Of a stretch of 64,000 bases of DNA, positions 13,480 to 62,983 are shown one piece after another; positions within the stretch are counted from its first letter, which is position 1, and each line of letters opens with the position of its first letter. The translations under genes were made by a program, and so were the position numbers. Origin of the DNA: Mesobacillus sp. AQ2 (GTDB lineage: Bacteria > Bacillota > Bacilli > Bacillales > Cytobacillaceae); the NCBI RefSeq assembly GCF_030122805.1, contig NZ_CP126080.1:1183001-1247000 (forward strand), written 5' to 3'. The notes beneath the pieces were generated by a model, which was not told where the DNA came from, did no database searches, and worked only from the letters and a program-made list of their open reading frames with translations.

Positions 13480-13590
13480 TATTCCTTAATTATTGTGAGA
13501 TATTCCTGAAAAAGCGGATATATTCCTTAAAAATGGATTATATTCCTTAGAACCAAAATATATTCCTTAAAATCCAGCCTTTATTCCTGA
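13480..13590. repeat. Short-period array of TATTCCTKA, six copies every 20-21 bp
   Basis: The 9-mer starts at 13480, 13501, 13521, 13541, 13561 and 13582, all in one orientation; the bases between copies vary. It lies in the 409-bp gap between the ygaE start and the glutamate synthase terminator. The rest of the gap (13255-13479) is AT-rich and shows no gene. Confidence 0.8.
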
Positions 13591-13622
13591 ATCAGGCTAA
13601 TCTGGATTGTGTCCAAAATAAA

Positions 13623-13647
13623 TGGCCCCGTTTTAGTAACGGGGCCA
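13623..13647 (-). terminator. Terminator of the glutamate synthase gene
   Basis: GC-rich stem TGGCCCCGTT / AACGGGGCCA followed on the minus strand by TTTATTTT. Confidence 0.9.
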
Positions 13648-13663
13648 CTATCATTTTCTTAAA

Positions 13664-16600
13664 TCATTCAGTTGATACGGCCGGGTCTGCCTGCTCTTTA
13701 ACAGGAACGACCTGAACAAAGTGATCTTCTGGATGCTCCATTATTAATGCAAGTTCTTTGGCTTCATTTTCCTGGCCATGGCGTGCCAGCATCTCGGTAT
13801 AGGATGAAAGCATTTCTTTTACATCCTGTACGCCTTTTGCGGTTAGTGTGTCGATGGAAACCTTCGCGCCTTTGGCAATACGGCGGGTGAGGGCTTCTCT
13901 TGTCAAGCCCATCTCCGGCTGATGTCTCAGATAGACGACACCGCCTGTCATGCCTGCACAAATCCATGGTCCCGGATCACCGAGGACAAGTCCGCGGCCA
14001 TTCGTCATGTATTCAAACGCAAATCCTTTGATATTGGCGTTTGTTCCAATGTTGCCGAATTCTTTTTCAGGGATAGGCTTTTTCACAAGTCCGCCGATGA
14101 TCATATCAGCTCCTGATAAACGGATTCCAGCACGGGCGTCGGCATTGCCCTGTGCGACGAGCAATCCTTTCTGCGCTCCGTAGCCAAAGCCTTTGCCGAC
14201 TGAACCATTGTAGAAACCGCCATCCTTGCCAGGGGATTTCGCGATTAAAATCGCACCGCCGAATGAAGTCTTACCGACTCCGTCCTGGCCGCCGCCGTCA
14301 ATCTCGATGTTGATGCCATCTGTGTTATAGGCGCCAAGTCCGTTTCCGAGAATGGAACCTTTGTAGCGAAGTGAGACTGGCTGCAGATTACGATAGGATC
14401 CATCAAGACGTCCACGGACACGGTGGCAGGAAACCCTGCTGGCCAGCACACGCTGTTCGGCAGTGACAGCTCTGAATTCGCGTGACTGATGAAGCTCTTC
14501 GTCGATTGCATCAAGATACTCGGCGCCTGCAGCGACCTGGAGCTGTGCTGATGCCATCGCGGCAGCAGCTTCTTTTTGATGCATGATCTGGCCGATTTCA
14601 AGCGGCTTCAGCAGGTAGGTCAAATCAAGCAAGTCATTTCCTTTAATCTGTTCCAGCAAGTCGGAGCGGCCGACTGCTTCCTGCAGATTTTTGATTCCGG
14701 CAGAAGCAGCCAGAGCCTTCAGTTCATTCCCGAATGCAGTGAATAGATTCATGATACCCTGGACAGCAAGGTCGAACTGGCGAGGTACAAATCGGCGCAA
14801 TCCGTGTTCCTTTGCCTGTGCTTCTGAGTCGATTTGGGTTGCGATCCCGACATGGCATGTATCCAGATGGCAGCCTCGGCAAGTTGTACAGCCGATGGCC
14901 AGCATTGACAGCGTACCAAAGCCGACGCGGTTTGCACCAAGGAGCATATATTTAATCACATCCTGAGCACTCTTCACACCGCCATCAGCCCAGAGCTCGA
15001 CATTGTCGCGCAATCCTGCTTCAAGCAAGGCATTGTGTGCCGCCTTAATGCCAATTTCGGCAGGCAAGCCGACAAACTGGAGTGCGTGGATGCGGGCAGC
15101 ACCTGTACCGCCGTCAAAACCGCTCAAGGTGATGATATCAGCCCCTGCCTTGGCGATACCAACTGCAATCGTGCCGATATTCGGAACGACAGGAACCTTA
15201 ACGGCTACACGTGCCTGGTCATTGGCTGTCTTGAGCTCATGGATCATTTGCGCAAGGTCTTCGATCGAATAAATATCATGGTTGTTTGATGGTGAAATCA
15301 AATCAGAACCAATGGTGGCATTCCTTGCCTCCGCTATTTTAGCTGTAACCTTCGAACCAGGAAGGTGTCCGCCTTCACCAGGCTTTGCGCCCTGACCAAT
15401 CTTGATTTCAAGAAGATTGGAAGAGTTCAGCAGCTCCGCATTCACACCGAAACGTCCTGAGGCAACCTGCTGGCCTCGCGTGCGCGGGTACTTGCCAAGC
15501 ATATCCTTGATTTCGCCGCCCTCGCCGTTCATGCTTACCATGTTCAAACGGTCTGCGCCTTCAGCATATGCACGGAATGCGATTTCGTTTTGCGAACCAA
15601 ATGACATTGAAGCGATGACAAACGGCAGGCTGTGTTCACCTACGCCGATTTCAACTTCTTCTGGTGAAACCTTTGAGTCGGTCTTTTTCAATCCAGTCAA
15701 ATGGCGGATCGTAGTCGGGTTGCTGTCTTCCTGTTCGGAAATTTTCTCCCGGTAGACACTATAGTCCCCGGTAGAAGCAACCTCACCAATCGCTTTCCAG
15801 ATACGAGGAAAGAGGTGGAACGTCTTGCCGATCCGTTCTTTTTCGTTCTGGAAGTCTTCAGCTCTTTTCAATGCGTCTTCTTTCATTGCTTCGAAATTGT
15901 ATGCAAGTTCATTAGAACCAAAGAAGTTCACGATCACTAAATAATCTGCAACTTCATCATTCAGGCCGATTGCCGAGAACAGACGCCCGTATCCGCGCAA
16001 TTCATGGATACCGATTGTGGAAATAACCTTTTCAAGGCCTTTCGTAAGGGCGCTGTACAGATTCACAAGCGGTGTGATGGACTCATCGAGTACTGTCATG
16101 AACATATAATATGGGCTGACTGCGTCTGCGCCCAGTCCGAGTGCAACAATGATATCATGCAGCGATCTTAAGGAAGCGGAACGAAGCAGCAGTGAGCAGT
16201 CGCGGCGCAATCCTTCTTTTACAAGAGCCTGGTCGATCGCTGAGACGACCAGATGCGGATCGAGCCACAGAGAATTTTCCTGGTGGGCCATTGCATCGTC
16301 AAGAACAAGCAATGTTTTGCCATCCTTCACAGCAGCAATTGCCTCAGCAGCAAGTTTCTCAAGCGCATCCTTGACTGTTTCGTCACTGTGGAAAACTGTT
16401 TCCAGATAGGCAGCAAGTTTGTCATCCTGATAGCATTGGATGACCTGGTCCATGCTTGGCTGGCCAGTTTTCAACGAAGCCTCATAGCCTGCTTTGCCTT
16501 CGATAAGCAGAGGGGTGAGCAGTTCGATGACTTTTCCTGTTTCTGTTTTTCCGAAAAGCGAAGGGCGTTTGCCAAGAACAGTCCTTGTTGAAAAATGTTC

Positions 16601-18133
16601 CGCCTCGCGGTCACGGTCTATTGCAGGATTTGTTACGACAGCGACACTTTCTTTAATAAAATCAGCGATATTTTTGCGTTCTGGATTCATCGCAGCAAGC
16701 GGAGCGTCATGTCCAAGGGAGCGGATTGGCTCTGCCCCTTTTTCAGCCATCTGTTCGACGAGCTGGACGTGGTCACGCTCCCAGCCGAATGCCTTATATT
16801 GTCCGTTATGGATTTTATCCGGGTATGTCATTGTTACCGTTTTTGCAAGATTTGCACCCTGTAGGCGATGACGGGCTTCCTGGAAAGAAATACGCCCGGA
16901 AAAACGCTGGTAAACCGCACTCTGGAACTGCTCCATTTCATAAACTTCGATTTTGTCACCATTCCATTTCAGGCCGACCTTCTCGCCCGGTGCAAGTGGC
17001 TTGGGGTCATTTGTGTACTCTGTTGATGAAATGATTCCCGGTTCTGATGAGAACAGGTATGAGCTTTCTGTTTCAACCATCCAGAGAGGGCGCAGGCCAA
17101 GAGCATCCACACTGAATACTGCTTCGTCGGCAAATCGCGAAATGATTCCGGCAGGTCCCTGTGCGAAGTGTCCCCATGCTTCGCGGATATAAGTATATAA
17201 ATCTTGTAAATGCTCCGGATAAGCTTTGATTTCATTGATGATTGGCGGGAACATCATGTCCATTGCCTCGAACAATGAGTAGCCATCACGGCAGATGAAT
17301 GTTTCCAGCGTACGGCTTAAATCCTGTGAGTCACTGCCATCTTTGACGAGTGGGACATTGACCATTCGAGCTTCGTCGCGGAGTCTTGCAATTGTATTGA
17401 TTTCTCCGTTATGTCCAAGGACGCTGAAGGGCTGAACACGGAAAAAGCTTGATAGAGTATTAGTAGAATAACGGTTGTGCCCAAGAGTCATAGTGGATGC
17501 CACAAGCGGGCTTGCCAGGTCATGGTAGTATTTCGGCAGTATGTCGCCTGCGCCCATAACCTTATAAACAGCGTGGTATTGGCTTAGGGAAGCCACATGA
17601 ACCTGATCGTTTTTCTCGAAATCTATGATCATATTAAACAATTTGCCTGAAAGTTCCTGTCCGACTTCGTCTGCAAGGCATGCGAACTGCCAAAATACAG
17701 GATTTTCCTGGATGGCAATCGGGCCAAGCGCTTCAGGATTTGTTACGTCAACAGATGAAAAGATCGGCATCATGTTTTGCTCTTCAAGCTTTGCCTTAAG
17801 TTCATCCTGGATTGCTTCAGCTTGATCGGTCCTCGTGATAAAAACATGTCCGACGACGAAGCTTTCGTTGTCGACAGCGCTGGATTCCACACCAGCTTCA
17901 ATAAGTTTTTCCTTCCAGAGCGCCCGTGGAATATCGATGTGCACACCCACTCCATCACCTTCGCCATTGATAAAGCCTGCTCGGTGGTTCATGGTGACGA
18001 GGCCATCAATACAGTGAAAAATATTTTCGCGCGTCGGGATCTTCTTTTTTTCAATGCTGGCTACAATTCCGCAGGCATCGTGTTCGAATCTTGAGAAATC
18101 TTTGAATTTGGAAGGGCTCCATTGTGTTGTCAT
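13664..18133 (-). CDS. Glutamate synthase large subunit, probably ferredoxin-dependent type
   Basis: Encodes 1489 residues. Transfers the glutamine amide to 2-oxoglutarate, giving two glutamates. Seen in order: a class II amidotransferase domain with catalytic Cys21 (FEHDAC) exposed after removal of a 20-residue propeptide; the central domain; the FMN-binding synthase domain (PGEGGHLPGSKVT); the iron-sulfur Cys group CTTCRGCHLDTCHVG; and the C-terminal GXGXG beta-helix domain. No small NAD(P)H subunit lies beside it, and it differs from the B. subtilis GltA N-terminus, so ferredoxin or a distant partner may be the donor. Start at ATG 18133 is chosen by homology; its only strong ribosome site (AGGAGGTGA) lies about 38 bases upstream. 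Confidence 0.9.
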   Translation of the reverse strand: MTTQWSPSKFKDFSRFEHDACGIVASIEKKKIPTRENIFHCIDGLVTMNHRAGFINGEGDGVGVHIDIPRALWKEKLIEAGVESSAVDNESFVVGHVFITRTDQAEAIQDELKAKLEEQNMMPIFSSVDVTNPEALGPIAIQENPVFWQFACLADEVGQELSGKLFNMIIDFEKNDQVHVASLSQYHAVYKVMGAGDILPKYYHDLASPLVASTMTLGHNRYSTNTLSSFFRVQPFSVLGHNGEINTIARLRDEARMVNVPLVKDGSDSQDLSRTLETFICRDGYSLFEAMDMMFPPIINEIKAYPEHLQDLYTYIREAWGHFAQGPAGIISRFADEAVFSVDALGLRPLWMVETESSYLFSSEPGIISSTEYTNDPKPLAPGEKVGLKWNGDKIEVYEMEQFQSAVYQRFSGRISFQEARHRLQGANLAKTVTMTYPDKIHNGQYKAFGWERDHVQLVEQMAEKGAEPIRSLGHDAPLAAMNPERKNIADFIKESVAVVTNPAIDRDREAEHFSTRTVLGKRPSLFGKTETGKVIELLTPLLIEGKAGYEASLKTGQPSMDQVIQCYQDDKLAAYLETVFHSDETVKDALEKLAAEAIAAVKDGKTLLVLDDAMAHQENSLWLDPHLVVSAIDQALVKEGLRRDCSLLLRSASLRSLHDIIVALGLGADAVSPYYMFMTVLDESITPLVNLYSALTKGLEKVISTIGIHELRGYGRLFSAIGLNDEVADYLVIVNFFGSNELAYNFEAMKEDALKRAEDFQNEKERIGKTFHLFPRIWKAIGEVASTGDYSVYREKISEQEDSNPTTIRHLTGLKKTDSKVSPEEVEIGVGEHSLPFVIASMSFGSQNEIAFRAYAEGADRLNMVSMNGEGGEIKDMLGKYPRTRGQQVASGRFGVNAELLNSSNLLEIKIGQGAKPGEGGHLPGSKVTAKIAEARNATIGSDLISPSNNHDIYSIEDLAQMIHELKTANDQARVAVKVPVVPNIGTIAVGIAKAGADIITLSGFDGGTGAARIHALQFVGLPAEIGIKAAHNALLEAGLRDNVELWADGGVKSAQDVIKYMLLGANRVGFGTLSMLAIGCTTCRGCHLDTCHVGIATQIDSEAQAKEHGLRRFVPRQFDLAVQGIMNLFTAFGNELKALAASAGIKNLQEAVGRSDLLEQIKGNDLLDLTYLLKPLEIGQIMHQKEAAAAMASAQLQVAAGAEYLDAIDEELHQSREFRAVTAEQRVLASRVSCHRVRGRLDGSYRNLQPVSLRYKGSILGNGLGAYNTDGINIEIDGGGQDGVGKTSFGGAILIAKSPGKDGGFYNGSVGKGFGYGAQKGLLVAQGNADARAGIRLSGADMIIGGLVKKPIPEKEFGNIGTNANIKGFAFEYMTNGRGLVLGDPGPWICAGMTGGVVYLRHQPEMGLTREALTRRIAKGAKVSIDTLTAKGVQDVKEMLSSYTEMLARHGQENEAKELALIMEHPEDHFVQVVPVKEQADPAVSTE

Positions 18134-18303
18134 AAATTTCGGCTTATAAAGTGTTCCTTTAAGCCGGTTCACCTCCTGAAAAAATAATCTATGATTTGTC
18201 GTTTGATAGCTTGGTACATGAGGGTATAACATTTTGACGGGAATTTAAAGCAAGGGATTAAAAGCGGCCACTTGAATGGCTAATTTTAAGAATATTAATA
18301 GCA

Positions 18304-18332
18304 ACTATATCATAAGAATTTTCAGAAATCAA
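18304..18332 (-). promoter_or_regulatory. Glutamate synthase promoter
   Basis: Minus strand TTGATT, 17 bp, TATAGT. The predicted start of transcription is near 18297, about 165 bases before the ATG. Confidence 0.65.
18317..18331. promoter_or_regulatory. CodY-like box in the glutamate synthase promoter
   Basis: AATTTTCAGAAATCA matches the CodY consensus AATTTTCWGAAAATT at 12 of 15 positions and lies between the -35 and -10 elements, where CodY binding would block transcription. Confidence 0.45.
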
Positions 18333-18400
18333 TTATTTATACATATTTTTGGATGAAAAGAATTTGGAGAAGGATTATCGTAAATGGAAAATAGCTAGCA

Positions 18401-18415
18401 ATGTAAACGTTTTCA
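18401..18415. promoter_or_regulatory. CcpA operator (cre) upstream of the glutamate synthase gene
   Basis: ATGTAAACGTTTTCA fits the cre consensus WTGNAANCGNWNNCW fully. It lies about 105-120 bp upstream of the predicted start of transcription, a position seen for CcpA activation rather than road-block repression. Confidence 0.65.
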
Positions 18416-18425
18416 TTTATAGGAT

Positions 18426-18459
18426 GAAAAATAACAGGCATCCAATCAATGCCTGTTAT
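18426..18459 (-). terminator. Terminator of gsaB
   Basis: ATAACAGGCAT / ATGCCTGTTAT stem followed on the minus strand by TTTTC, 19 bp after the gsaB stop. Confidence 0.85.
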
Positions 18460-18477
18460 GTATAGAAAGTTGTATAT

Positions 18478-19773
18478 TTATTCATTCGCCATTGAATAAA
18501 ATGCCTGGTCAACTGCATGCAGGGTGGCTTCAATATCTTCCTGTGTATGAGCAATCGTAACGAACCATGCTTCATATTTGGAAGGAGCTAGATTGATTCC
18601 CTGCTGAAGCATCAGGTTGAAGAAACGCGCAAACATTTCGCCATCTGTGTTCTCTGCCTGCTCATAGTTTTCGATCTTTTCAGTTGTAAAGTAGATGGTG
18701 AGCGCACCTTTCAGACGATTGGTCGAAATCGGGATCCCGTGCTTGCTTGCTGAAGCTGTGATTCCTTCTTCGAGCATCGCGCCAAGCTGATCTAGGTAAT
18801 CATATACACCATCCTGTTTCAGGACTTCCAGGCAGGCAATGCCGGAAAGGATGGAAGCCGGGTTGCCAGCCATCGTGCCCGCTTGATAAGCAGGGCCAAG
18901 TGGAGCGACTTTTTCCATAATTTCAGCACGGCCGCCGTAAGCGCCGATTGGCAGGCCTCCGCCGATGATCTTGCCCATTGCTGTAAGGTCAGGTGTGATT
19001 CCCAGCAAGTCCTGAGCTCCGCCGTACATAAAGCGGAAGGCGGTGATGACTTCATCAAAAATGATCAGCGATCCAGCCTGATGGGTAAGCTCCTTCACTT
19101 CCTCTAGGAAACCAGGTTTAGGTTCGACAATTCCAAAATTGCCGACAATCGGCTCCACTAAAACTGCCGCGATTTGGTCGCCCCATTTTTCAAGTGCCTC
19201 CTTGAAAGGTTCAATATCATTGAATGGCACTGTAATGACTTCCTGTGCAATGCTTTTAGGCACACCAGCTGAATCAGGCGTCCCAAGAGTGGATGGACCA
19301 GAACCTGCAGCAACTAATACCAGGTCTGAGTGGCCGTGATAGCAGCCGGCAAACTTGATGATTTTATCGCGCCCGGTATATGCCCGTGCTACTCGGATTG
19401 TCGTCATGACTGCTTCGGTACCTGAATTCACAAAACGCACTTTATCCATCCCGGGCATTGCTTCCTTCAGCATTTTTGCGAATTTAACCTCATGAGGAGT
19501 TGGCGTGCCATATAATACCCCTGTTTCGGCAGCTCTTTTGATTGCCTCGGTAATATGCGGGTGGGCATGCCCCGTGATAATCGGGCCATATGCCGCCAGA
19601 TAATCGATGTATTGATTGCCGTCCACATCCCAGAAGTATGCCCCCTGGGCCCGTTCCATCACAACAGGGGCACCGCCGCCGACTGCCTTGTAGGAACGGG
19701 ACGGGCTATTTACGCCTCCGACGATATGTTCAAGTGCTTCATTATGTATTCGCTCAGAATTCGTTCTTTGCAT
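18478..19773 (-). CDS. gsaB: Glutamate-1-semialdehyde 2,1-aminomutase 2
   Basis: Encodes 431 residues; PLP enzyme that converts glutamate-1-semialdehyde to 5-aminolevulinate for haem synthesis. Seen: [12 protein letters not shown] near the N-terminus, the PLP-phosphate region [15 protein letters not shown], Asp of FDEVITAFR, and the Schiff-base Lys268 in [10 protein letters not shown]. Start chosen at the second of two adjacent ATGs (19773), 7 bases after AGGAGG; the long upstream extension has no site. This is the gsaB paralogue of the hem-operon hemL; its position before bcp-perR matches B. subtilis. Confidence 0.93.
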
Positions 19774-20017
19774 CATTAAACCTCCTAAATATGACTGCCT
19801 AACTATTTTATCATTAATTTTATTTTTTACCGATTGTTTCACTTTTCGTTCATTTCCAACGAAAAAGAAGCTTTGTTTTAGACTCGCAATTCCTTCGTTA
19901 TTCAACATGTTTTCTGATTGAACTATCCGAGACCACGAAAAGGGTAATCAGGCATAGCATTTGTTTTAGCCAGGAGGATTGGCTAAACTGTTTGAGTGAC
20001 CAAAGGAGGAAATCAAC

Positions 20018-21818: not shown

Positions 21819-22604
21819 GTGTTTTACGTTAGCATGTTTTTTCAGTATGTCGCCCAGTATATGAAAACAAGGCTCGAATACCGGGCAGATCTGGTCGTTG
21901 AAATATTTTCGGATTTATTGTTCCAGGCGGTCAATCTGATATTTATCCTCGTGGTATTCGATCATACCGAATTCCTGAACGGCTGGAGCCGGGATGAAAT
22001 CATCTTTATATACGGGTTTTTCCTTGTGCCTTACGCACTTTTTTCTTCCTTCTTCAATATTTGGGATTTCAATGAACGTTATATAGTAAAAGGGGAACTT
22101 GACCGGATCCTGACAAGGCCGATCCACAGCCTGTTCCAAATCATCCTTGAACGGATGGAACTGGAATCATTGTTCGGAGCCATCACTGGCCTAGCTGTCA
22201 TGTTTTATGCCGGAAGCCGGCTTGGCCTTGAGGTAAGCTGGTCTGATCCCTTCTTATTTGTTTTATTTGTCTTGGGCGGTGTTCTTGTTTATGCCGGCAT
22301 TTTCGTGATGATCGCCTGCATAAGCTTCTGGGCAGATGCCCGCACATCCATCATGCCGATGATGTACAATATCGGGAACTACGGCCGCTATCCTGTTGAT
22401 ATCTATAACAAGGCAATCCGGTTTGTCCTGACATGGATTTTGCCATTCGCCTTCGTCGGAGTCTATCCCGCTGCCTATTTCCTAGGACGAGATGAGTGGT
22501 ATGGTTATTCATTTTTGACACCAGTAATCGGGCTTGCCTTTTTCAGCCTGTCAGTGTTCATTTGGAATGAAGGCGTTAAAAGATACCGTGGTGCTGGGAA
22601 CTGA
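21819..22604 (+). CDS. ABC-2 family permease (DUF990-like), second subunit
   Basis: Encodes 261 residues with about six hydrophobic segments; starts GTG 21819 after GGGAGGGTGA, 3 bp beyond the previous stop. The motif GELDRILTRPIHSLFQI (about residues 90-106) and YGRYPVDIYNKAIRFVLTWILPF are characteristic of COG3694 proteins, which always occur beside the previous two genes. No terminator follows; the gene runs straight into the large tandem array. Confidence 0.85.
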   Translation: MFYVSMFFQYVAQYMKTRLEYRADLVVEIFSDLLFQAVNLIFILVVFDHTEFLNGWSRDEIIFIYGFFLVPYALFSSFFNIWDFNERYIVKGELDRILTRPIHSLFQIILERMELESLFGAITGLAVMFYAGSRLGLEVSWSDPFLFVLFVLGGVLVYAGIFVMIACISFWADARTSIMPMMYNIGNYGRYPVDIYNKAIRFVLTWILPFAFVGVYPAAYFLGRDEWYGYSFLTPVIGLAFFSLSVFIWNEGVKRYRGAGN

Positions 22605-22645
22605 CTTTAATTATTTCAGCACCATGAGGGAATCGTTGCTGGGGA

Positions 22646-23750
22646 AAGATGCCCTTTTAGAGTCCAAAACAGCTTGATATGGGTACTGCTGATTGAGGAA
22701 GGTGCCCTTATGAGGCACAAAGCAGCTCCATAAGGGTACTATTACTGGAAAAAGATACCCTTATGGGGCACAAAGCAGCTCTATAAGGGTACTATTACAG
22801 GATAAAGATACCCTTATGAGGCCCTAAACAGCTCCATAAGGGTACAATTATAGGAGAAAGGTGCTCTTATGAAGTCCAAAGCAGCTCTATAAGGGTATCA
22901 TTACGGGAGAAAGATACCCTTATAAGGCCAAAGCAGCTCCATAAGGGCACTATTACTGAAGAAAGATACCCTTATAAGGCCAAATCAGCTCCATAAGGGC
23001 ACTATTACTGAAGAAAGATACCCTTATGCAGTGAAAATCAGCTCTATAAGGGTACCATTCCAGGAGAAAGATACCCTTATGAAGTCCGAAGCAGCTCCAT
23101 AAGGGTACCATTCCAGGAGAAAGGTGCCCTTATGAAGTCCAAATCAGCTCCATAAGGGTACTATTACGGGAGAAAGATCCCCTTATGAGGCACAAATCAG
23201 CTCCATAAGGGTACCATTCCAGGAGAAAGATACCCTTATGAATCCCAAAACAGCTCCATAAGGGTACTATTACAGAAGAAAGATACCCTTATGAATCCCA
23301 AAACAGCTCCATAAGGGTACTATTCCAGGAGAAAGATACCCTTATAAAGTCCAAACCAGCTCCATAAGGGTACTATTATAGGAGAAAGATACCCTTATGA
23401 ATCCCAAACCAGCTCCATAAGGGTACTATTACAGAAGAAAGATACCCTTATGAAGCCCAAAACAGCTCCATAAGGGTACCATTCCAGGAGAAAGATACCC
23501 TTATAAAGTCCAAACCAGCTCCATAAGGGTACCATTCCAGGAGAAAGATACCCTTATAAAGTCCAAACCAGCTCCATAAGGGTACTATTATAGGAGAAAG
23601 ATACCCTTATGAATCCCAAAACAGCTCCATAAGGGTACTATTACAGAAGAAAGATACCCTTATGAAGCCCAAAACAGCTCCATAAGGGTACCATTCCAGG
23701 AGAAAGATACCCTTATAAAGTCCAAAGCAGCTCCATAAGGGTCTCATTCC
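22646..23750. repeat. Tandem array 1: about 21 units of 53 bp with TACCCTTAT/ATAAGGGTA arms
   Basis: Left arms (TACCCTTAT or close variants) recur every 53 bp (52 twice) from about 22649 to 23706. Each is followed, 18 bp later, by the inverted arm ATAAGGGTA, then a 17-bp spacer. Both the loop (ending AGCTCC) and the spacer (ending GGAGAAAGA) are conserved, unlike CRISPR spacers. The period is not a multiple of three and no frame is kept open, so it is not coding. First and last units are the most degenerate. Confidence 0.95.
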
Positions 23751-23752
23751 TT

Positions 23753-23793
23753 AAAGACAGTACTGCAGCATTAACCTTGCTGCGGTCTTTTTT
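23753..23793 (+). terminator. Terminator at the end of array 1
   Basis: Imperfect stem AAGAC..GCAGCA / TGCTGC..GTCTT followed by TTTTTTATT, directly after the last unit. It could end the ABC transporter transcript after it has crossed the array. Confidence 0.6.
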
Positions 23794-23929
23794 ATTATTT
23801 CAGACAGGTCCTGACTTGAAATGCCGAAAATAGTCAGAAGCATGGATCTCATCAGAGTGTACTTGCTGTCATACTCCTATTTTCGCCAGCGTATAGTGAA
23901 GGGAGAGAGGCATGAAATGAGGCTTGAAA

Positions 23930-29857: not shown

Positions 29858-30005
29858 AGTAAAGTCGCTTCTGGGCGGCATGCTAACTAACTTGCTCTTT
29901 GAAAACTAAACAAACAAGCGTCAACAAACAATAAATTATCATGCTTCTATTAATTATAGAAGACATGAGCCAACGTTTTAACTTATGAGCTAACTCATAA
30001 CTCTT

Positions 30006-34713
<4,708 letters not shown>

Positions 34714-34719
34714 AATACG

Positions 34720-34838
<119 letters not shown>

Positions 34839-34930
34839 TGATCATTCGATTCCCTTGTTTTCTTCTTACACATTATCTAGTTTTGAGGGAATAAAGATTT
34901 TTACGAAGTGAAATATCTTTAAAATTTCTC

Positions 34931-34958
34931 TTGCAAAATGCACTAAAGACAGTATAAT
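34931..34958 (+). promoter_or_regulatory. Candidate promoter directly before 5S rRNA
   Basis: TTGCAA, 16 bp, perfect TATAAT; predicted start near 34965, 15 bp before 5S. It could drive 5S and the tRNA cluster apart from the main rrn promoters. Confidence 0.5.
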
Positions 34959-34979
34959 AGATATTGTCTTGAAAAAATG

Positions 34980-35095
<116 letters not shown>

Positions 35096-53673: not shown

Positions 53674-53853
53674 CCCATGCGCCTCCTCTTCATTTTAATA
53701 CTTTCCTATCTTCTCACATTTTGATATTTCTAAAAAGCAATTGCATCCGAAGGGACGGTTTGCAGGGAACCGTGATAATCAGAGATGTACTGACTTTTTT
53801 TTAGGAAGGTTAGGAGGAGGCATGGGGAGAGCTGTTAAGAACCGCTCGGTATT

Positions 53854-54559
53854 TTGACAGGTTGAGGGCGATAGAGGTAAAAGCTGTCAAGAAAGTGTGG
53901 TTATTTTGACAGGTTCGGGGTGAGAGCGGTAAAAGCAGTCAAGAAAGCGTGGTTATTTTGACAGGTTCAGGGTGATAGCAGGAAAAGCTGTCAAGAAAGC
54001 GTGGTTATTTTGACAGGTTGAGGGTGATAGCGGTAAAAGCAGTCAAGAACCGGCCGTTATTTTGACAGGTTGGGGGCGACAGCAGGAAAAGCAGTCAAGA
54101 AAACGTCATTATTTTGACAGGTTCTGGGTGATGGAGGTAAAAGCTGTCAAGAAAACGTCGTTATTTTGACAGGTTCAGGGTGATAGCAGGAAAAGCAGTC
54201 AAGAAAGTGTGGTTATTTTGACAGGTTCGGAGTGAGAGCGGTAAAAGCAGTCAAGAAAGCGTCGTTATTTTGACAGGTTGAGGGTGATGGCGGTAAAAGC
54301 TGTCAAGAAAACGACGTTATGTTGACAGGTTCAGGGTGATAGCAGGAAAAGCAGTCAAGAAAGCGACGTTATTTTGACAGGTTCAGGGTGATAGCAGGAA
54401 AAGCAGTCAAGAAAGCGACGTTATTTTGACAGGTTGAGGGTGATGGCGGTAAAAGCTGTCAAGAAAACGTCGTTATTTTGACAGGTTGGGGACGATAGCA
54501 GGAAAAGCTGTCAAGAACCGGCCATTATTTTGACAGCTTTAAAACAAATGCCATACAAG
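53854..54559. repeat. Tandem array 2: 14 TTGACAG/CTGTCAA dyads with 52-bp period
   Basis: TTGACAG recurs at 53854, 53906, 53958 and every 52 bp to 54530 (one unit reads GTTGACAG with a changed flank). About 23 bp later each unit has CTGTCAA or its variant CAGTCAA, then a 15-bp spacer. Loop and spacer are both conserved with point changes. The last unit has a shorter, unrelated loop. It lies between divergent genes. The stretch 53700-53853 before it holds nothing I can identify. Confidence 0.95.
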
Positions 54560-54916: not shown

Positions 54917-54950
54917 AACAATCATGCCTTCTTCACGGCCTGATTGTTTT
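54915..54950. terminator. Bidirectional terminator
   Basis: AAAACAATCATGCC / GGCCTGATTGTTTT stem between convergent genes. Confidence 0.85.
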
Positions 54951-55593: not shown

Positions 55594-55799
55594 GGAACAT
55601 GTTCCTCCCAGTCGAGTTTGTACCATTGTTCCCGTTGGGTCATCTGTAAAAACATGTGTCAATGTTATTAACTTTTTTATAGTTTCTAACAAATAAATCG
55701 TATTCTTAAAAATTACTAATAGTTTTATAAGTGAACTTCATATATCATGGGAATTGTAAGCATATTCATCGATATTTTTGACGGAGAACAGGAGAAAAC

Positions 55800-56645: not shown

Positions 56646-56650
56646 GATCT

Positions 56651-56692
56651 AAAAAAGGGAACCAGCCTACGCAGGGCTGATTCCCTTTTTTT
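56651..56692 (+). terminator. Terminator of the DegV-family gene
   Basis: AAAAAGGGAACCAGCC / GGGCTGATTCCCTTTTT stem with T tail. Confidence 0.9.
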
Positions 56693-56731
56693 AAAAAGAA
56701 AGCCTGCAACTTTAATAGCTGCGGGCTTTTC
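56691..56731 (-). terminator. Terminator of pbuG
   Basis: AAGCCCGCA / TGCAGGCTT stem; minus-strand tail TTCTTTTTAA, 6 bp beyond the pbuG stop. Confidence 0.75.
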
Positions 56732-56736
56732 GTTTG

Positions 56737-58029
56737 CTATACATAAATAAAATAACCGACAAACAGGAATCCAAGAACATACATAATCGGGTGGACATCT
56801 CTGGATTTGCCCATGCCAAGCATCATTAATGGATAAAGAATGAAGCCGAGCGCAATCCCTGTTGCGACACTGAAAGTGAGCGGCATCATAATGATGGTCA
56901 CGAAAGCCGGAATGATGACAGCCAGGTTATTCCAGTTAATCTTGCTGATTTCAGTTGCCATCAGCGCACCTACGATAATCAATGCTGGTGCGGTGACTTC
57001 CGGAGTGATCACGGATAGTACAGGTGAGAAAAACAAGGCTGCGCCAAAACATGCAGCAATGATGACGGAAGTGAATCCGGTGCGGCCCCCGACCGCGATT
57101 CCTGCTGAAGATTCCACGAATGATGCGGTTGTTGAAGTGCCGAGTACAGCACCAGCAACCGCCGAGCCAGCATCTGCAAGCAGGGCACGGCCTGCATTCG
57201 GGATTTTATTATCCTTCATCAATCCCGCCTGGCTTGCTACTGCAATCAATGCACCCGCCGTATCGAAGAATGCAACGAACAGGAAGGTGAAAATGACGGC
57301 AAGCACATCCGGTGAGAAAATATCCCCTAAGTGGTTGAAGACAACGCCGAAAGTAGGAGAAATGTCTGGAACAGTGCCGACAACGGCGTCAGGTTTTTCA
57401 ATCAAGCCAGTAGAGATCCCGATGATCGTGGCAATGACCATTCCGTAAAAAATACCTCCGCTGACCCCGCGGACCATCATGATCACACTGATGATGAAAC
57501 CGAACAAAGCAAGCAATACCGGCCCCGATGTAAGGTTGCCAATCGACACAAATGTCGCTTCGCTGCCAACTATGATTCCAGCATTTTTCAGGCCGATGAA
57601 GGCAACGAAAAAGCCGATTCCCGCTGCGATGGCATGCTTCAGGTCCTGTGGAATGACATTGATGATCTTTTCACGGATTTTAAGAAGGCTGAGGATAACG
57701 AACAGGACACCCGCAACAAAGACGCCGGTAAGGGCGACCTCCCATTCAACACCCATCCCTATGCTGACGCTAAAAGTGAAAAAAGAATTCAAGCCCATGC
57801 TTGGAGCGATTCCGATCGGAAAATTGGCAAGCAGTCCTATGAGCAAAGAGCCAATGATGGCAGAAAGCGCTGTCGCTGTAAAAACGGCACCCTTGTCCAT
57901 GCCGGCCTGGCTTAGGATCATCGGATTGACGACAAGAATATACGCCATCGATAAGAATGTCGTAATCCCGGCAAGTGACTCTTGTTTATAACTGGTGTTT
58001 CGTTCTGCAAACTGGAAAAAGTTTTTCAT
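56737..58029 (-). CDS. pbuG: Hypoxanthine/guanine permease
   Basis: Encodes 430 residues, AzgA-type NCS2 family purine permease with about 12-14 helices. Seen: TSYKQESLAGITTFLSMAYILVVNP (about 12-36), GLNSFFTFSV, ATALSAIIGSLLIG, FDTAGALIAVASQAGL (about 255-270) and GTSTTASFVESSAGIAVGGRTG (about 294-315), the substrate-site signature. Start ATG about 10 bases after AGGAGG. The leader holds a guanine riboswitch and terminator, so high guanine or hypoxanthine shuts the gene off. Confidence 0.95.
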   Translation of the reverse strand: MKNFFQFAERNTSYKQESLAGITTFLSMAYILVVNPMILSQAGMDKGAVFTATALSAIIGSLLIGLLANFPIGIAPSMGLNSFFTFSVSIGMGVEWEVALTGVFVAGVLFVILSLLKIREKIINVIPQDLKHAIAAGIGFFVAFIGLKNAGIIVGSEATFVSIGNLTSGPVLLALFGFIISVIMMVRGVSGGIFYGMVIATIIGISTGLIEKPDAVVGTVPDISPTFGVVFNHLGDIFSPDVLAVIFTFLFVAFFDTAGALIAVASQAGLMKDNKIPNAGRALLADAGSAVAGAVLGTSTTASFVESSAGIAVGGRTGFTSVIIAACFGAALFFSPVLSVITPEVTAPALIIVGALMATEISKINWNNLAVIIPAFVTIIMMPLTFSVATGIALGFILYPLMMLGMGKSRDVHPIMYVLGFLFVGYFIYV

Positions 58030-58059
58030 ATGTGCTGTCCTCCTGGTTGTTTATTTGAG

Positions 58060-58095
58060 AAAATAAAAAACTCCGGCAGTGCATGCTGCCGGAGT
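58060..58095 (-). terminator. Riboswitch-controlled terminator of pbuG
   Basis: ACTCCGGCAG / CTGCCGGAGT stem followed on the minus strand by TTTTTTATTTT, 31 bp before the pbuG start. Confidence 0.92.
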
Positions 58096-58145
58096 ACCAC
58101 AAAGGACAAAACAAATGCCAAAAAAGAGTGGCAAATATCTAAGTC

Positions 58146-58214
58146 CCTTGTAGTCACGCCTTTTACGGTAGCATGGTAGAAACGTCCGAGCCATATTCTC
58201 GAACATATACAAGG
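58146..58214 (-). promoter_or_regulatory. Purine (guanine-type) riboswitch aptamer
   Basis: P1 stem CCTTGTA / TACAAGG encloses the purine-aptamer core: TATATG, GGACGTTTCTACC, CCGTAAA and GACTAC. The base equivalent to position 74 is C, which pairs with guanine/hypoxanthine rather than adenine. A terminator follows 50 bp later. Confidence 0.95.
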
Positions 58215-58243
58215 AAAAATGATGGATTTAAATAATAATAGAG

Positions 58244-58272
58244 ATAGTATCAGTTATTTTTTCCTAGGTCAA
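58244..58272 (-). promoter_or_regulatory. pbuG promoter
   Basis: Minus strand TTGACC, 17 bp, TACTAT; predicted start near 58237, about 23 bases before the riboswitch P1 stem. Confidence 0.75.
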
Positions 58273-58359
58273 TTGGATTCCAGGAAGTTTATCTATTTGA
58301 TTTTTTCTGATTATTAGCAGGATGACATTAAATGTTCTGGAAGTTGGCTGTTAAATTTA

Positions 58360-58480
58360 GATGCTGGTTTCCAAGTCGCGGAATGATAGTGGAAATTAGC
58401 GGAATTATATGGCTGTTTCACGAAATTGCAGGTGGATTTTGCGGGAAATTAATTCGGTTTCGCGGAATTGCATTATTTTC
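58360..58480. repeat. Degenerate GCGGAATT-type repeats
   Basis: Several variants of GCGGAATT / GGAAATT recur unevenly (58377, 58390, 58399, 58441, 58460). It may be a decayed tandem array. The remainder of the 58273-58686 gap shows no gene. Confidence 0.35.
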
Positions 58481-58686
58481 ACATATAAATCATTCATTCC
58501 TGGGACCTGGTTGAAATTGCTGTAATAGAGTAATCCTTGGCAGGGTATCGAAAGTCCCGCTATTATGGAGTTTTGACAACTTTTTGAATGAAATATGTGA
58601 ATAAAAAATGAACTAATTAGCAAAACACCCCTGATTGGATGACAACTTACTATAATGATAGTGTAATCCAAACGGAGGTGCCAATA

Positions 58687-59007
58687 ATGAACGTAACGAC
58701 GATTATTGAGTTGGAAAATCGCGAAGTGGAAAAGATGGCTGGCGCAAAACTGGTTTTTACTCAGGAGCAAATTGACGCAAATATCGTGGAGACATGTGTA
58801 GATTGTTTTAAATATGAAGGATCAGATGAATGCCTGGATACGGACGATGCAATGCAGAGGGTATTTGAAACATTGAAAGCTGACGGATTGATTCCTGAAG
58901 CAGTGCAGGATTTTTCCTATGAAATGCCTTCATGTGAAAGGTTGAGAAAAGAAGTATACGAAGAACAGGACATGCCGCAAAAGGTAGTCCTCAGTTTCGC
59001 AATATAA
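58687..59007 (+). CDS. Small acidic protein of unknown function with CxxC
   Basis: Encodes 106 residues, acidic, no membrane segment. A central VETCVDCFKYEGSDEC segment (about residues 35-50) has a CxxC and a nearby third Cys, and a fourth Cys lies near residue 79 (MPSCERL). A metal-binding or redox role is possible but unproven. Start ATG 58687 is 7 bases after GGAGGTG; the ATG at 58639 lacks a site. Own terminator follows. Confidence 0.75.
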   Translation: MNVTTIIELENREVEKMAGAKLVFTQEQIDANIVETCVDCFKYEGSDECLDTDDAMQRVFETLKADGLIPEAVQDFSYEMPSCERLRKEVYEEQDMPQKVVLSFAI

Positions 59008-59015
59008 AGAAAGAT

Positions 59016-59047
59016 AAAAAAGGAGTTCATAATGAACTCCTTTTTTA
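59016..59047 (+). terminator. Intrinsic terminator
   Basis: AAAAAAGGAGTTCAT / ATGAACTCCTTTTTT stem. Confidence 0.9.
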
Positions 59048-59102
59048 TCGAAAACGTGACTTTTGTCAAAGAGAAGATAAAAGTAGGCTTATATAATAGT
59101 AA

Positions 59103-59117
59103 ATGAAAACGCTTTCA
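59103..59117. promoter_or_regulatory. CcpA operator (cre) of the oxidoreductase operon
   Basis: ATGAAAACGCTTTCA fits WTGNAANCGNWNNCW fully. It lies 5 bp after a TATAAT (59092-59097) at the expected start of transcription and before the ribosome site, a position for repression by CcpA. Confidence 0.75.
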
Positions 59118-59138
59118 ATAGAAGAAGGAGGTGGAGCC

Positions 59139-59825
59139 GTGAAACGAGGTGCGGATATAACCATTATTACCGGCCATTTTGGCAGCGGCAAAACCGAGAT
59201 ATCGATCAATCTGGCGTTAGAAGCAGCAAAGGAGAGGACGAGAGTCGCAGTCGCCGATCTTGATATTGTCAATCCTTATTATCGTGCAAGGGATGCCAGG
59301 GCTATTTTTTCAGAAAAAGGGATTGAATTGATTGCACCTGCTGAAAGGCTTGCTGCTGCGGACTTGCCGATTGTTCCTGGCGATTTAAGCAGGGTGATTT
59401 ATGATCCGTCGTATAAGCTGATTGTCGATGCAGGCGGGGATAAGGATGGGGCGACAGCACTGGGTCAATTCTACAGCGATTGGAAAGAGATGAAGCTAGA
59501 GGTACTCTTTGTCCTGAATGCCAACCGGCCTTACGTAAGTACTCTGGAAGGTGCAATGGATACCTTGAAGAAAATTGAAAAAGCCTCAAGATTGAAGATC
59601 ACCGGCATCATCAATAATTCAAATGTTGGAAATGATACCACGGATCAGGATGTGTCGAATGGCTTGAAACTGAGTATGGCTCTATCGGAACAGCTTGGAA
59701 TTCCGATGTTGTACACGGTAGTGCCGCAGCATTTAGCAACTGAAGCATTAGAAGAAGTCGATATTGAGGCGGCAGCACCAGTGAAGGTGATCTCCAGGTA
59801 TCTGAGATTGCCGTGGGAAATGTAA
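59139..59825 (+). CDS. P-loop ATPase of the CobQ/MinD type, oxidoreductase-associated
   Basis: Encodes 228 residues. Walker A GHFGSGKTE about 11-19 with the deviant spacing of MinD/CobQ-like proteins, DLDIVNPYYRARD (about 43-55) as switch region and VDAGGD (about 98-103) as Walker B. Homologues are found before 2-oxoacid:ferredoxin oxidoreductase genes in anaerobic Firmicutes; a cofactor- or cluster-assembly role is inferred. Start is GTG 59139 after AAGGAGGTGG. The ATG at 59103 is in frame but is part of the cre site. Confidence 0.85.
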   Translation: MKRGADITIITGHFGSGKTEISINLALEAAKERTRVAVADLDIVNPYYRARDARAIFSEKGIELIAPAERLAAADLPIVPGDLSRVIYDPSYKLIVDAGGDKDGATALGQFYSDWKEMKLEVLFVLNANRPYVSTLEGAMDTLKKIEKASRLKITGIINNSNVGNDTTDQDVSNGLKLSMALSEQLGIPMLYTVVPQHLATEALEEVDIEAAAPVKVISRYLRLPWEM

Positions 59826-59839
59826 AGGAGGCAAAAGCA

Positions 59840-60070
59840 GTGGAGAAGAGAGTTGTTTTTAACGAAGAGACTTGCAAATCGTGTAAGTTGTGCGTGAATG
59901 CTTGTCCGACAAATGTGATCTATCTGGCTGATTACTTGAATGAAAAGGGATACCGGCCAGCCGTCGTCACTGATCAGGAAAACTGTATCAGCTGCGGGAA
60001 ATGCGCGCAAATGTGTCCGGATTCCGTGATCACTGTATATAGGCCTGAGAAGGTTCGCAAATCTGTGTAA
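59840..60070 (+). CDS. 2-oxoacid:ferredoxin oxidoreductase delta subunit (2x 4Fe-4S ferredoxin)
   Basis: Encodes 76 residues with two cluster motifs, CKSCKLCVNACP (about 13-24) and CISCGKCAQMCP (about 48-59). It passes electrons from the catalytic core to ferredoxin. Start GTG 59840 is 8 bases after AAAGGAGG and 14 bp beyond the ATPase stop; an earlier ATG (59813) lies inside the previous gene. Typical order delta-alpha-beta-gamma follows. Confidence 0.9.
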   Translation: MEKRVVFNEETCKSCKLCVNACPTNVIYLADYLNEKGYRPAVVTDQENCISCGKCAQMCPDSVITVYRPEKVRKSV

Positions 60071-60086
60071 CAAAGGAGAGATGACA

Positions 60087-61151
60087 ATGGGGAAAGTACT
60101 GATGAAGGGTAATGAGGTGATCGCCGAAGCTGCTGTCCATGCGGGCTGTAAGTATTTTTTCGGTTATCCGATTACCCCGCAGAGTGAGCTTGTAGCCTAT
60201 ATGGCCAGAAGGCTGCCCGAGGTTGGCGGGTTATTTTTACAGGCGGAAAGTGAAGTGGCTGCGATAAATATGGTGTATGGTGCGGCAGGAACCGGAGTTC
60301 GCGTGATGACGTCTTCTTCAAGCCCGGGCTTTAGCCTTAAGCAGGAAGGAATCTCCTATCTTGTTGGGGCTGAGCTTCCGGCGCTGATCGTGAATGTTAT
60401 GCGGGGCGGCCCTGGGCTTGGGAACATCCAGCCGGCTCAATCGGATTATTTCCAGGTAACAAAGGGCGGAGGACATGGCGACTATCATACACCAGTCCTG
60501 GCGCCATCTACTCTCCAGGAAATCATAGACCTGACGGAAGCAGCATTTGATATTGCCGACCGCTATCGGACGCCTGTTATCCTGCTTGGGGATGGCATGC
60601 TTGGACAGATGATGGAGCCTGTCGAGTTCAAGGAGCTGAAAGAAAGGGAACCGGAGCAGAAGGAATGGGCAACGACAGGAACCCGCGGGGACGGCAAGCC
60701 GAGGGTCATCACTTCACTAGAATTAAATGCTGATGCCCTGGAAAAACGCAATGAACATCTTCAGAAAAAATTTGCGCTGATTCAGCAAAATGAAGTCAGA
60801 TATGAGACGTATGAAACAGAGGATGCAGAATATATCGTAACGGCTTATGGAACCGCCGCAAGGATTGCCATGAATGCAATCAACAAAGCGCGTAAAGACG
60901 GACTGAAAATCGGCATGATCCGCCCAATTACACTTTGGCCATTCCCTGAATTGCCGTTTGTTGAGACCCGCGACCGGGTGAAGGGCTTTCTTTCGGTTGA
61001 GATGAGTGCCGGACAGATGGTCGAGGATGTCAGGCTGGCTGTCGAGGGCAAAGCTCCTGTTTCATTTTTCGGCCGGACTGGCGGGGTAGTGCCGACGCAG
61101 GAAGAAATCTATGATCAGATCATCAAGCTGGCCGGGGGTGTTGTGGTATGA
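60087..61151 (+). CDS. 2-oxoacid:ferredoxin oxidoreductase alpha subunit
   Basis: Encodes 354 residues. Pyrimidine-binding half of the thiamine diphosphate enzyme. Seen: [16 protein letters not shown] (about 20-35) with the TPP-activating region, [30 protein letters not shown] (about 51-80) and a C-terminal transketolase-like domain (from about 240, [14 protein letters not shown]). The sequence group is VOR/KOR rather than pyruvate specific; the exact 2-oxoacid cannot be read. Start ATG 60087 is 8 bases after AAGGAG. Confidence 0.92.
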
Positions 61152-61906
61152 CGATGAAAACGGTGTTCGAGAAAACAGCGGGGCTGACGGATACCCAGAC
61201 CCATTACTGTCCTGGCTGTACGCATGGAATCATCCACAGGATGGTAGGAGAAGTGCTGGAAGAAATGGGCATCCTCGAGGATACGGTCGGAGTAGCATCG
61301 GTTGGATGTTCGGTGCTGTCTTACGAATATTTCAATTGTGATATGACACAGGCAGCGCATGGCCGGGCTCCCGCAGTAGCGACCGGGATCAAGCGCGTCC
61401 TCCCAGACCGATTTGTTTTTACCTACCAGGGGGATGGCGACCTGGCTTCGATTGGGATTGCCGAAGCGGTCCATGCAGCAGCACGGGGGGAAAACATTAC
61501 GGTCATCTTCGTCAACAACGCGATTTATGGGATGACAGGCGGACAAATGGCGCCGACCACACTGGTTGGCCAGAAAACGGCGACAACTCCTTTTGGCCGG
61601 AATGCGAGCATTCAGGGACTGCCGATCCGGGTTAGTGAAATGCTGTCAACATTGGATGGCACAGCTTATATCGAAAGGGTTTCCTCGCACGATGTCCCGA
61701 ATATCCTAAAAGCAAAGAAAGCGATCCGCAAAGCATTCGAAACACAGAAGCAGGGGCTTGGCTTCTCGATGGTCGAGGTACTTTCAAGCTGTCCAACGAA
61801 CTGGGGGCTGGATCCGAATGAATCACTAGATTGGATCAAGGACAATATGGTGCCTGCTTATCCTCTCGGTGTATATAAGGATGTCCAGAAGGGGGATGTT
61901 CGCTGA
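61148..61906 (+). CDS. 2-oxoacid:ferredoxin oxidoreductase beta subunit
   Basis: Encodes 252 residues. Holds the TPP diphosphate motif [30 protein letters not shown] (GDG...NN, about 95-124) and an N-terminal CPGCTHG cluster-proximal motif (about 21-27). Start ATG overlaps the alpha stop by 4 bp (ATGA), and the gene overlaps the gamma start by 1 bp, so translation of the three subunits is coupled. Confidence 0.92.
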
Positions 61907-62451
61907 TGGAAGAAATTCTGATTGCCGGCTTTGGCGGCCAGGGGGTCATGTCGATGGGCCAATTGATTGCCTATGCCGGAATGACAGAGGGCAAGTTTGT
62001 ATCATGGCTTCCTTCTTACGGACCTGAGCAGCGTGGGGGTACCGCAAACTGTGCAGTAGTTGTCAGCGAGCAGCAGGTTGGTTCGCCGCTGGTTTCTAGC
62101 CCGACAACAGCCATTGTCCTGAACAATCCTTCTTATGAAAAATTCGAGCCAGTTGTAAGGGCTGGAGGATTACTCATAGTAAACTCCTCATTAATTTCAA
62201 AAAGAACGGAAAGAACCGATATCAGGGTGTTGAATATCAACGCAACAGAGAAGGCCAATGAACTTGGCAACCCGAAAGTCGCCAATATGATTCTTCTTGG
62301 CGCATTTTTAGAAGAAACGGGAATCCTTCCAGATGAATCGATCTTGGAAGCGTTGAAAAAAGTGCTTGCGCCGGAAAAACATTCCCTATTGGATATTAAT
62401 CGGCGAGCGCTCGAACTCGGGCGTTCATTGACGAAGATAAGTGCCTCTTGA
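61906..62451 (+). CDS. 2-oxoacid:ferredoxin oxidoreductase gamma subunit
   Basis: Encodes 181 residues. CoA-binding-type gamma domain: IAGFGGQGVMSMGQLIAYA (about 6-24), PSYGPEQRGGTANCAVVVS (about 36-54) and VANMILLGAFLEETGI. It completes a four-subunit enzyme (separate alpha, beta, gamma, delta), the arrangement common in anaerobes. No clear terminator follows; tandem array 3 begins 70 bp downstream. Confidence 0.92.
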   Translation: MEEILIAGFGGQGVMSMGQLIAYAGMTEGKFVSWLPSYGPEQRGGTANCAVVVSEQQVGSPLVSSPTTAIVLNNPSYEKFEPVVRAGGLLIVNSSLISKRTERTDIRVLNINATEKANELGNPKVANMILLGAFLEETGILPDESILEALKKVLAPEKHSLLDINRRALELGRSLTKISAS

Positions 62452-62522
62452 TGGATGGCTCGGGATAGAATGATTCTCGTGGGTTAGTCGGTTTTGAGAG
62501 GGGAATGAGGTTTTAATTGTAA

Positions 62523-62983
62523 TATGTGCCCGAAAACTGTGCAATCCGCGGATGACGGTCACATAAAAGAGAAATATGTGCCCGAAAAGATGGCTGTCCC
62601 TAGATTATGGTCACATAAAAGAGAAATATGTGCCCGAAAACTGTGCAATCCGCGGATGACGGTCACATAAAAGAGAAAATGTGCCCGAAAACTGTGCAAT
62701 CCGCGGATGACGGTCACATAAAAGAGAAAATGTGCTCGAAAACTGTGCAGTCCACGGATAACGGTCACATAAAAGAGAAATATGTGCCCGAAAACTGTGC
62801 AATCCGCGGATGAGGGTCACATAAAAGAGAAATATGTGCCCGAAAACTGTGCAATCCGCGGATGACGGTCACATAAAAGAGAAATATGTGCTCGAAAACT
62901 GTGCAGTCCACGGATAACGGTCACATAAAAGAAGAATATGTGCCCGAAAAGAGAGCGAAGCCAGAATTCCGGTCACAAAAATA
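62523..62983. repeat. Tandem array 3: 9 TATGTGCCCG/CGGTCACATA dyads with 51-52-bp period
   Basis: Left arms start near 62523, 62575, 62627, 62678, 62729, 62781, 62833, 62885 and 62937. Each is followed about 23 bp later by CGGTCACATA, which pairs with it over 10 bp with one mismatch, then a 9-bp spacer ending GAGAAA. In units 2 and 9 the loop differs almost completely while both arms persist. Not coding: frame is lost between 51- and 52-bp units. Confidence 0.95.

Follow-up and report, generated by a model that had tools for sequence, protein, structure and literature searches.

Intergenic tandem arrays of 52-53 and 20-21 bp in Mesobacillus sp. AQ2: evidence for a common half-site plan and helical rhythm in a known class of Bacillus satellites

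Background

Subirana and Messeguer (2021) catalogued 4029 satellite arrays in 176 Bacillus genomes, 1886 of them with repeats of 51-53 nt and 781 with repeats of 20-21 nt (PMC8161180). According to the available text of that paper, the size of these satellites is constant, their sequence is variable and their function unexplained; its authors put forward either small RNAs or a nucleoid protein that polymerises on the DNA. We analysed a stretch of 64,000 nucleotides (the window), positions 1183001-1247000 of the 4.80-Mb contig NZ_CP126080.1 of Mesobacillus sp. AQ2, which carries three long arrays of 52-53 bp units and one array of 20-21-bp units. An earlier note on this DNA had ascribed to these four arrays a single architecture, with dyads in phase with the DNA helix. 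The window arrays are members of the published satellite class. Judged from consensus units, many seemingly unrelated 52-bp arrays share a hidden GKC-N19-GMC plan centred on a dyad; this holds within the genus and, at lower frequency, for other genera. Across species, one and the same intergenic slot can hold unlike arrays, some of them of the other size class.

As far as the available text of the catalogue defines it, the class comprises non-coding arrays of 51-53 or 20-21 nt in at least four copies. The three long arrays have 8-20 copies and are intergenic; the 20-bp array reaches 3.8 copies with Tandem Repeats Finder (TRF) and about six by eye. Many dispersed arrays of constant size and variable sequence are found here as well, and both size classes, several families per genome and partial conservation between strains are common to the two data sets. 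The short conserved words reported there, often with "their reverse", are encountered here in the 52-bp class and not in 20-22-bp units. With respect to the same text, the elements that are new are the GKC-N19-GMC core across species, a divergence footprint, a 10.4-bp rhythm, the position relative to terminators and the sharing of slots by unlike families. Our literature search found papers by Subirana and Messeguer on these satellites and no later mechanistic study.

Other repeats are alike in part. The bacterial interspersed mosaic elements BIME-2 and the related repetitive extragenic palindromic (REP) sequences of enterobacteria are also intergenic, clustered and made of alternating inverted units. 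A genome-organising role has been proposed for them (PMC6379681, in the text available). No common sequence was noticed, and the present arrays differ in having two fixed helical periods and in dispensing with a Y1 (RAYT-type) transposase. The E. coli gyrase motif is likewise symmetric and nucleosome-like, with helically periodic G+C; as described in the accessible portion of the same source (PMC6379681), it is, unlike the arrays, a single site of about 130 bp with a 10.75-bp period and without GKC half-sites. Clustered regularly interspaced short palindromic repeats (CRISPR) share regular direct repeats with internal dyads; here the entire unit of about 52 bp is repeated, with 82-89% matches in the window arrays, and there are no unique spacers.

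Abundance and periods of the arrays

TRF finds all four arrays that the earlier note had listed, none with an assigned strand, and returns the 51-53-bp period claimed for the three long ones. Array 1 (22644..23748) has period 53 and 19.7 copies, with CCCTTATG/CATAAGGG half-sites. Array 2 (53830..54536; period 52, 13.6 copies) lies about 24 bp to the left of where it had been placed and contains CTGTCAA/TTGACAG half-sites (TGTC-N19-GACA); worn units reach ~54572 by eye. Array 3 (62521..62950; period 52, 8.3 copies) has GGTC-N19-GCCC half-sites, and a worn unit extends to ~62977 by eye. The TRF scores of these three are 697-1519, for a floor of 40. The fourth array (13472..13592) is built of 20-21-bp units with a ATATTCCTTAA core; TRF reports 13472-13549 with period 20, and worn copies continue by eye to ~13592. 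Copy numbers in the same-species genome G006 are 22.8, 20.7 and 5.3 for arrays 1, 2 and 3.

The genome was sampled by the window and 60 evenly spaced 20-kb stretches (1.264 Mb), counting arrays with a TRF score of at least 60. The period is 52-53 bp (34 arrays) or 20-21 bp (27 arrays) in 61 of 78 tandem arrays, and at scores of at least 150 the two classes hold 38 of 40 (33 and 5, respectively). By proportion, the whole genome would contain about 130 arrays of 52/53 bp and 100 of 20/21 bp. In two relatives, G005 and G003, samples of 400 kb per genome contained 51-53-bp arrays (15 and 11) and 20-21-bp arrays (6 and 7). A further set, 80 named loci (1.50 Mb, mostly Bacillaceae) that surround one gene, holds 66 arrays; of these, 37 have a 51-53-bp period, as do 36 of the 45 strong ones. 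The periods thus cluster near 52-53 and 20-21 bp, as had been predicted; the window arrays are not the only ones, and periods are not widely scattered. Few 20-21-bp arrays are coding (2 of 27 in the own genome, 3 of 13 in G005 and G003).

Most 20-21-bp arrays of the own genome lie in the half nearer the origin (23 to 4, compared with 15 to 19 for 52-bp arrays; p 0.0013; L009-L048, L079-L098). This bias is absent in G005 and G003 (7 to 6), so it is not claimed as general. Among the sampled stretches, one gene made mostly of 9-, 15- and 42-bp repeats encodes a predicted 715-residue protein (L033, 10948-12063).

A shared core about a dyad

The mean best-arm score is 7.8 over 49 arrays from the own and related genomes, compared with 4.4 (sd 0.9) for shuffled units. 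The inverted arms that the earlier note saw in each unit are therefore present beyond chance in the 52-bp class; the 20-22-bp units contain none beyond chance (3.4 versus 3.2 shuffled, 59 units). The best arms cover positions 10.5-12.5 bp from a dyad centre in 44 of 49 arrays, versus 24% of shuffles (47 of 102 strong-arm shuffles), and they do so because of a core, [TG]G[TG]C-N19-G[AC]C[AC], or KGKC-N19-GMCM. The own genome has this core in 23 of 34 consensus units (mean 0.5 at other spacings), genus relatives in 30 of 40 (mean 0.8) and the nearest named loci, a set that overlaps the genus set, in 6 of 10. In other genera (26 arrays with score of at least 140 from L125-L196, outside the nearest eight loci) the four-letter core occurs in 5 arrays (mean of other spacings 0.13) and the shorter GKC-N19-GMC in 10 (mean over all spacings 0.92, next best 4).

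The statement that the arrays have no sequence in common is accurate on plain inspection and fails at this level, arrays 2 and 3 sharing the cryptic core in the forms given above. In array 1 the core is one-sided or weak, and the CCCTTATG families, with period 53, mostly lack it. Left and right half-sites frequently differ by transversions. Isolated copies of TGTC-N19-GACA are not in excess (31 versus 30 expected, sd 7.7), so neighbouring sites probably cooperate; an ordinary transcription factor was rejected as the binder on the same count.

Divergence between the copies of an array

Copies of each array were aligned to their own consensus and all arrays were positioned on the dyad. With the centre taken from the arms alone (42 arrays), divergence amounts to 2.5-6.5% in the zone 6-17 bp from the centre, as opposed to 9-15% both nearer to it (0-5 bp) and farther out (18-26 bp); in 38 of the 42 arrays the core has diverged less than the remainder (Wilcoxon p 1.5e-7). 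Re-centring 39 arrays by the core gives 3-4% for most of positions 5-17 (6-9% at 8, 9 and 14) and 8-18% for the spacers. Two 13-bp half-sites are thus about three times less diverged than the spacers. The footprint has a similar, noisier shape in other genera, and slippage alone would not leave it.

Paired changes in the arms are not in excess: 3712 pair cells contain 238 single changes and 4 double changes, for 5.7 doubles expected under independence. Nor is there a wobble asymmetry in the arms of 22 tandem-gene arrays read on an assumed sense strand (55 transitions keeping versus 43 breaking wobble pairing; 249 versus 258 in spacers). Together these two results speak for recognition of double-stranded DNA, short of proof.

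A helical rhythm in A+T content

The earlier note derived helical phasing from the unit length. The phasing is also carried by the sequence itself, as an A+T harmonic of 10.4 bp. Computed with no anchoring, the mean power of this fifth harmonic reaches 3.04 (z 16) for the 72 genus arrays and 3.21 (z 8.3) for the 13 non-redundant families. The 25 arrays from other genera give 2.16 (z 5.5), compared with 1.20 (z 3.6) for 400 ordinary intergenic 52-mers. Among the 59 short units, of 20-22 bp, the second harmonic stands at z 9.2 and the first at z 5.2. The helical harmonic (fifth, or second in the short units) is the strongest one in 27 of 72 genus arrays, 6 of 13 families, 2 of 25 arrays of other genera and 25 of 59 short units. 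It persists when the core is masked (z 11.6, 47 arrays).

In 52 anchored genus arrays A+T is high (0.65-0.95) at 3-7 and 16-18 bp from the dyad, middling (0.52-0.65) at 24-26 and low at 1-2, 10, 12, 14 and 20-23; the A+T-rich positions of 9 anchored arrays from other genera are 4-6, 16 and 24-26. With arm-based anchoring the dyad phase is G+C-rich in all 18 usable arrays (of 25) of other genera. The genus families, in which it is ambiguous which of two dyad centres to choose, show this in 6 of 12. Spacer mutations may follow the rhythm as well, and here the data are suggestive only. Pooled over 30 arrays, A/T to G/C changes affect 5.7% of A/T-phase and 13.3% of G/C-phase positions, and the reverse changes 13.6% and 11.0%; when positions beside half-sites are left out, the values become 6.9% versus 14.3%, and 15.7% versus 10.9%. 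Static curvature, computed with a wedge model, places 9 of 13 genus families in the most curved fifth of shuffles, and 7 of 25 arrays of other genera and 7 of 40 21-bp arrays. Curvature being high in the genus only, "bendable or wrapped" describes the arrays better than "curved".

Genomic placement and slots

Gene calls, terminators and slots come from simple scripts, families were separated by eye, and some slot loci belong to the same or nearly the same strain. The 34 own 52-bp arrays occupy 20 tandem, 9 convergent and 4 divergent gaps, one lying at a stretch edge. At 38 gene ends next to 52-bp arrays a terminator-like hairpin precedes the array in 20 cases and lies beyond it in 4, none being found in 15; at 28 gene ends next to 20-21-bp arrays the counts are 19, 6 and 4. 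Within tandem gaps a 52-bp array lies at a median of 87 bp from the stop codon before it and 162 bp from the start codon after it. The 52-bp class prefers convergent over divergent gaps weakly when the own genome, G005 and G003 are pooled (15 to 7 versus 174 to 220, p 0.045; own alone p 0.15, relatives alone p 0.17). Genes upstream of arrays are somewhat longer (median 969 versus 783 bp, p 0.008). High expression of these genes was considered and rejected: their codon adaptation is no different (64 versus 435 genes, p 0.61) for a reference set of only rpoB, rpoC, a piece of the EF-G gene and gapA.

Array 1 lies between gene 21819-22604 (+), which we take to be an ABC-2 permease-like gene, and a gene at 23924. 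A terminator-like hairpin with T-run (23753..23793, +), recognised by eye and by our own terminator finder, directly follows the array. The corresponding slot was compared in 20 genus loci, one of the 21 genus genomes lacking the permease-like gene. TRF finds a 52/53-bp array in 10 of them and a 21-bp array in G018. By eye, the terminator of the own species is preceded by the CCCTTATG array, and G012 has two or three worn CCCTTATG units; 11 relatives have at least one TGTC-type unit, with the hairpin preceding the array; G014 and G015 hold a third family, and no units are seen in G009, G011 and G019. The own genome retains after the terminator a single worn TGTC-type unit, TTCAGACAGG...GTCAGAAGC (23799..23841, +), seen by eye against loci L051-L063, which appears to be related to the 52-bp family filling this slot in relatives. 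The locus L117, entitled "Cytobacillus oceanisediminis 2691" strain DE0166, carries a 22.8-copy CCCTTATG array and a HemL 100% identical to that of the window; its title seems misassigned, as does that of L122 ("Chryseobacterium sp. ISL-80", HemL 96% identical to the window's).

Array 3 sits in the gap of two convergent genes. Its slot contains arrays by TRF in 7 of 20 genus loci, two of them at about two copies. By eye these belong to three or more families, and G003, G005 and G008 show worn units of yet another, fourth kind. One family, ATGGAGACAC, occupies both this slot and that of array 1 in G015. The slot of array 2 contains arrays in 13 of 20 genus loci, all of TGTC type by eye, so wholesale replacement is not a universal rule.

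The 20-bp array is downstream of gene 13664-18232 (-), presumably a glutamate-synthase-like gene; the terminator-like hairpin of this gene (13624..13646, -), found by eye and with our finder, stands between its stop and the array. When 16 gene-pair slots were traced through as many as 71 loci, only four proved to hold arrays of either size class. The glutamate-synthase-like slot is filled in 13 of 59 loci by at least six families (by eye), of 20 bp in some and 51-52 bp in others, and one further locus has a 26-bp array. The permease slot is filled in 11 of 38 loci, the divergent HemL slot in 5 of 58, with three more arrays of other periods, and the fourth in 1 of 71. A further slot has long-period repeats in two loci, and the tandem HemL-synthase slot, of similar width, has no arrays in 64 loci. 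Slot positions can therefore outlive their sequences, though the width of the gap that an old array leaves behind may in itself favour the arrival of another.

Outside both size classes, a 37-bp tandem array is present in the divergent HemL promoter region of G008 and G003 (L099, 7953-8137; L103, 7933-8137), and TRF detects no tandem array in that region of the window. A 41-bp array of 7.2 copies beside the synthase gene of G004 (L107, 734-1028) looks like a doubled 20-bp unit. Elsewhere in the window, a purine riboswitch (58131-58232, -) lies ahead of a 430-aa gene (56737-58029, -), and an rRNA operon (30005-35095) is followed by 15 tRNA genes. The closest match of the window's 16S rRNA in the plasmid collection, at 97.8% identity, is a copy on a Mesobacillus foraminis plasmid, and the window's HemL shows 94% identity to proteins in Mesobacillus and Bacillus records.

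Interpretation

We lean, at somewhat better than even confidence, towards reading the arrays as scaffolds of phased double-stranded sites for a candidate DNA-bending or -wrapping protein that binds as a symmetric assembly. The 52-bp unit, five helical turns long, would present two inverted 13-bp half-sites with the GKC core about one turn from the dyad, embedded in A+T-rich and G+C-rich stretches alternating every 10.4 bp. The 20-21-bp arrays, which have the rhythm without the dyad, might be a two-turn relative of the same principle. Neighbouring sites would probably act together as a cooperative scaffold. Lying between a gene end, often past its terminator, and the next promoter, the arrays would most likely be local architectural or topological boundaries. 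Half-sites that are conserved without compensatory pairing fit a protein site. The interpretation of the earlier note is partly supported: its phasing idea is borne out, and the nucleoid or insulator role and the shared amplification mechanism that it suggested stay at the level of inference.

Several observations weigh against this reading. The inner letters of the half-sites vary among families within one genome, which is odd for a single specific protein. In other genera GKC-N19-GMC is missing in 16 of 26 arrays, and the core failed to anchor 22 of 74 genus and 17 of 26 other-genera consensus units. Copies within one array are not independent, so that p-values are optimistic. The indel/substitution ratio of 0.10 is not clearly below neutral, and the rarity of indels was dropped as proof of a length constraint. 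Array-wise counts show fewer A/T to G/C changes at A/T-phase positions in only 20 of 30 arrays, and in 13 of 20 (1 equal) without half-site neighbours; base changes within a class are likewise rarer at these positions. Three of the four double arm changes are compensatory, too few to weigh, and such repeats are transcribed in B. coagulans, as seen by RNA-seq in the available text of PMC8625621.

A bolder form of the protein-scaffold reading is tentative and rather improbable: Bacillaceae might mark fixed slots with chromatin-like scaffolds wrapped by a common architectural protein, the letters being replaceable, the rhythm and half-site geometry kept, and the 52-bp and 21-bp arrays serving as interchangeable five-turn and two-turn forms.

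It is unlikely that the arrays are selfish or neutral satellites, spread by slippage and recombination and inserted into tolerant gaps, with half-sites serving a recombinase rather than the cell. Such an origin would agree with the copy numbers varying within the species, with distances in tandem gaps as tolerance would give them, and with wholesale replacement of families; an old array may also widen a gap for a new one. However, neutral expansion predicts neither two fixed periods across genera, nor a helical rhythm in both classes, nor repeated use of a slot by unlike families and the other size class. REP-type Y1 transposases were also not detected in two array-bearing genomes: G016 and G020 have no PF01797 match at E<=0.001, and 18 of 21 genus genomes, including the own genome G000, have one. 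A RAYT/REP transposase was accordingly rejected as a requirement. G000 itself has six IS200-type Y1 transposase matches of near-equal score and G006 only one, divergent, match, a difference due either to recent expansion or to loss in the draft assembly.

DNA gyrase as the binder, with arrays that would correspond in Bacillaceae to the E. coli gyrase sites in BIME-2 and handle positive supercoils downstream of genes, appears less probable still. What puts gyrase forward by name is the nucleosome-like G+C rhythm of its E. coli motif, together with its cleavage in BIME-2 arrays, which show properties of strong gyrase sites in intergenic regions (PMC6379681, in the text available). The arrays show the same kind of rhythm and, in pooled counts, a preference of the 52-bp class for convergent gaps; they depart from the motif in the period and the GKC half-sites, the context bias is weak, and upstream codon adaptation is no higher.

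Least probable of all is a function in RNA, as rows of hairpins in transcribed 3' regions or as small RNAs: the inverted arms, array 1 preceding its terminator, the compensatory double changes and the B. coagulans transcripts would suit it, but hairpins were not preferred given the terminators standing more often between stop and 52-bp array than beyond it, the lack of covariation and of wobble asymmetry, the transversions between half-sites, and window arrays that match no Rfam family at the gathering score.

Significance

The cataloguing paper, in the available text, leaves open what these abundant satellites do (PMC8161180). The shared core, the footprint, the rhythm and the use of slots make the class testable, by asking which protein binds unlike arrays of equal plan. 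Should the slots prove architectural, this would be an instance of a bacterial chromosome in which inheritance concerns position and geometry more than sequence.

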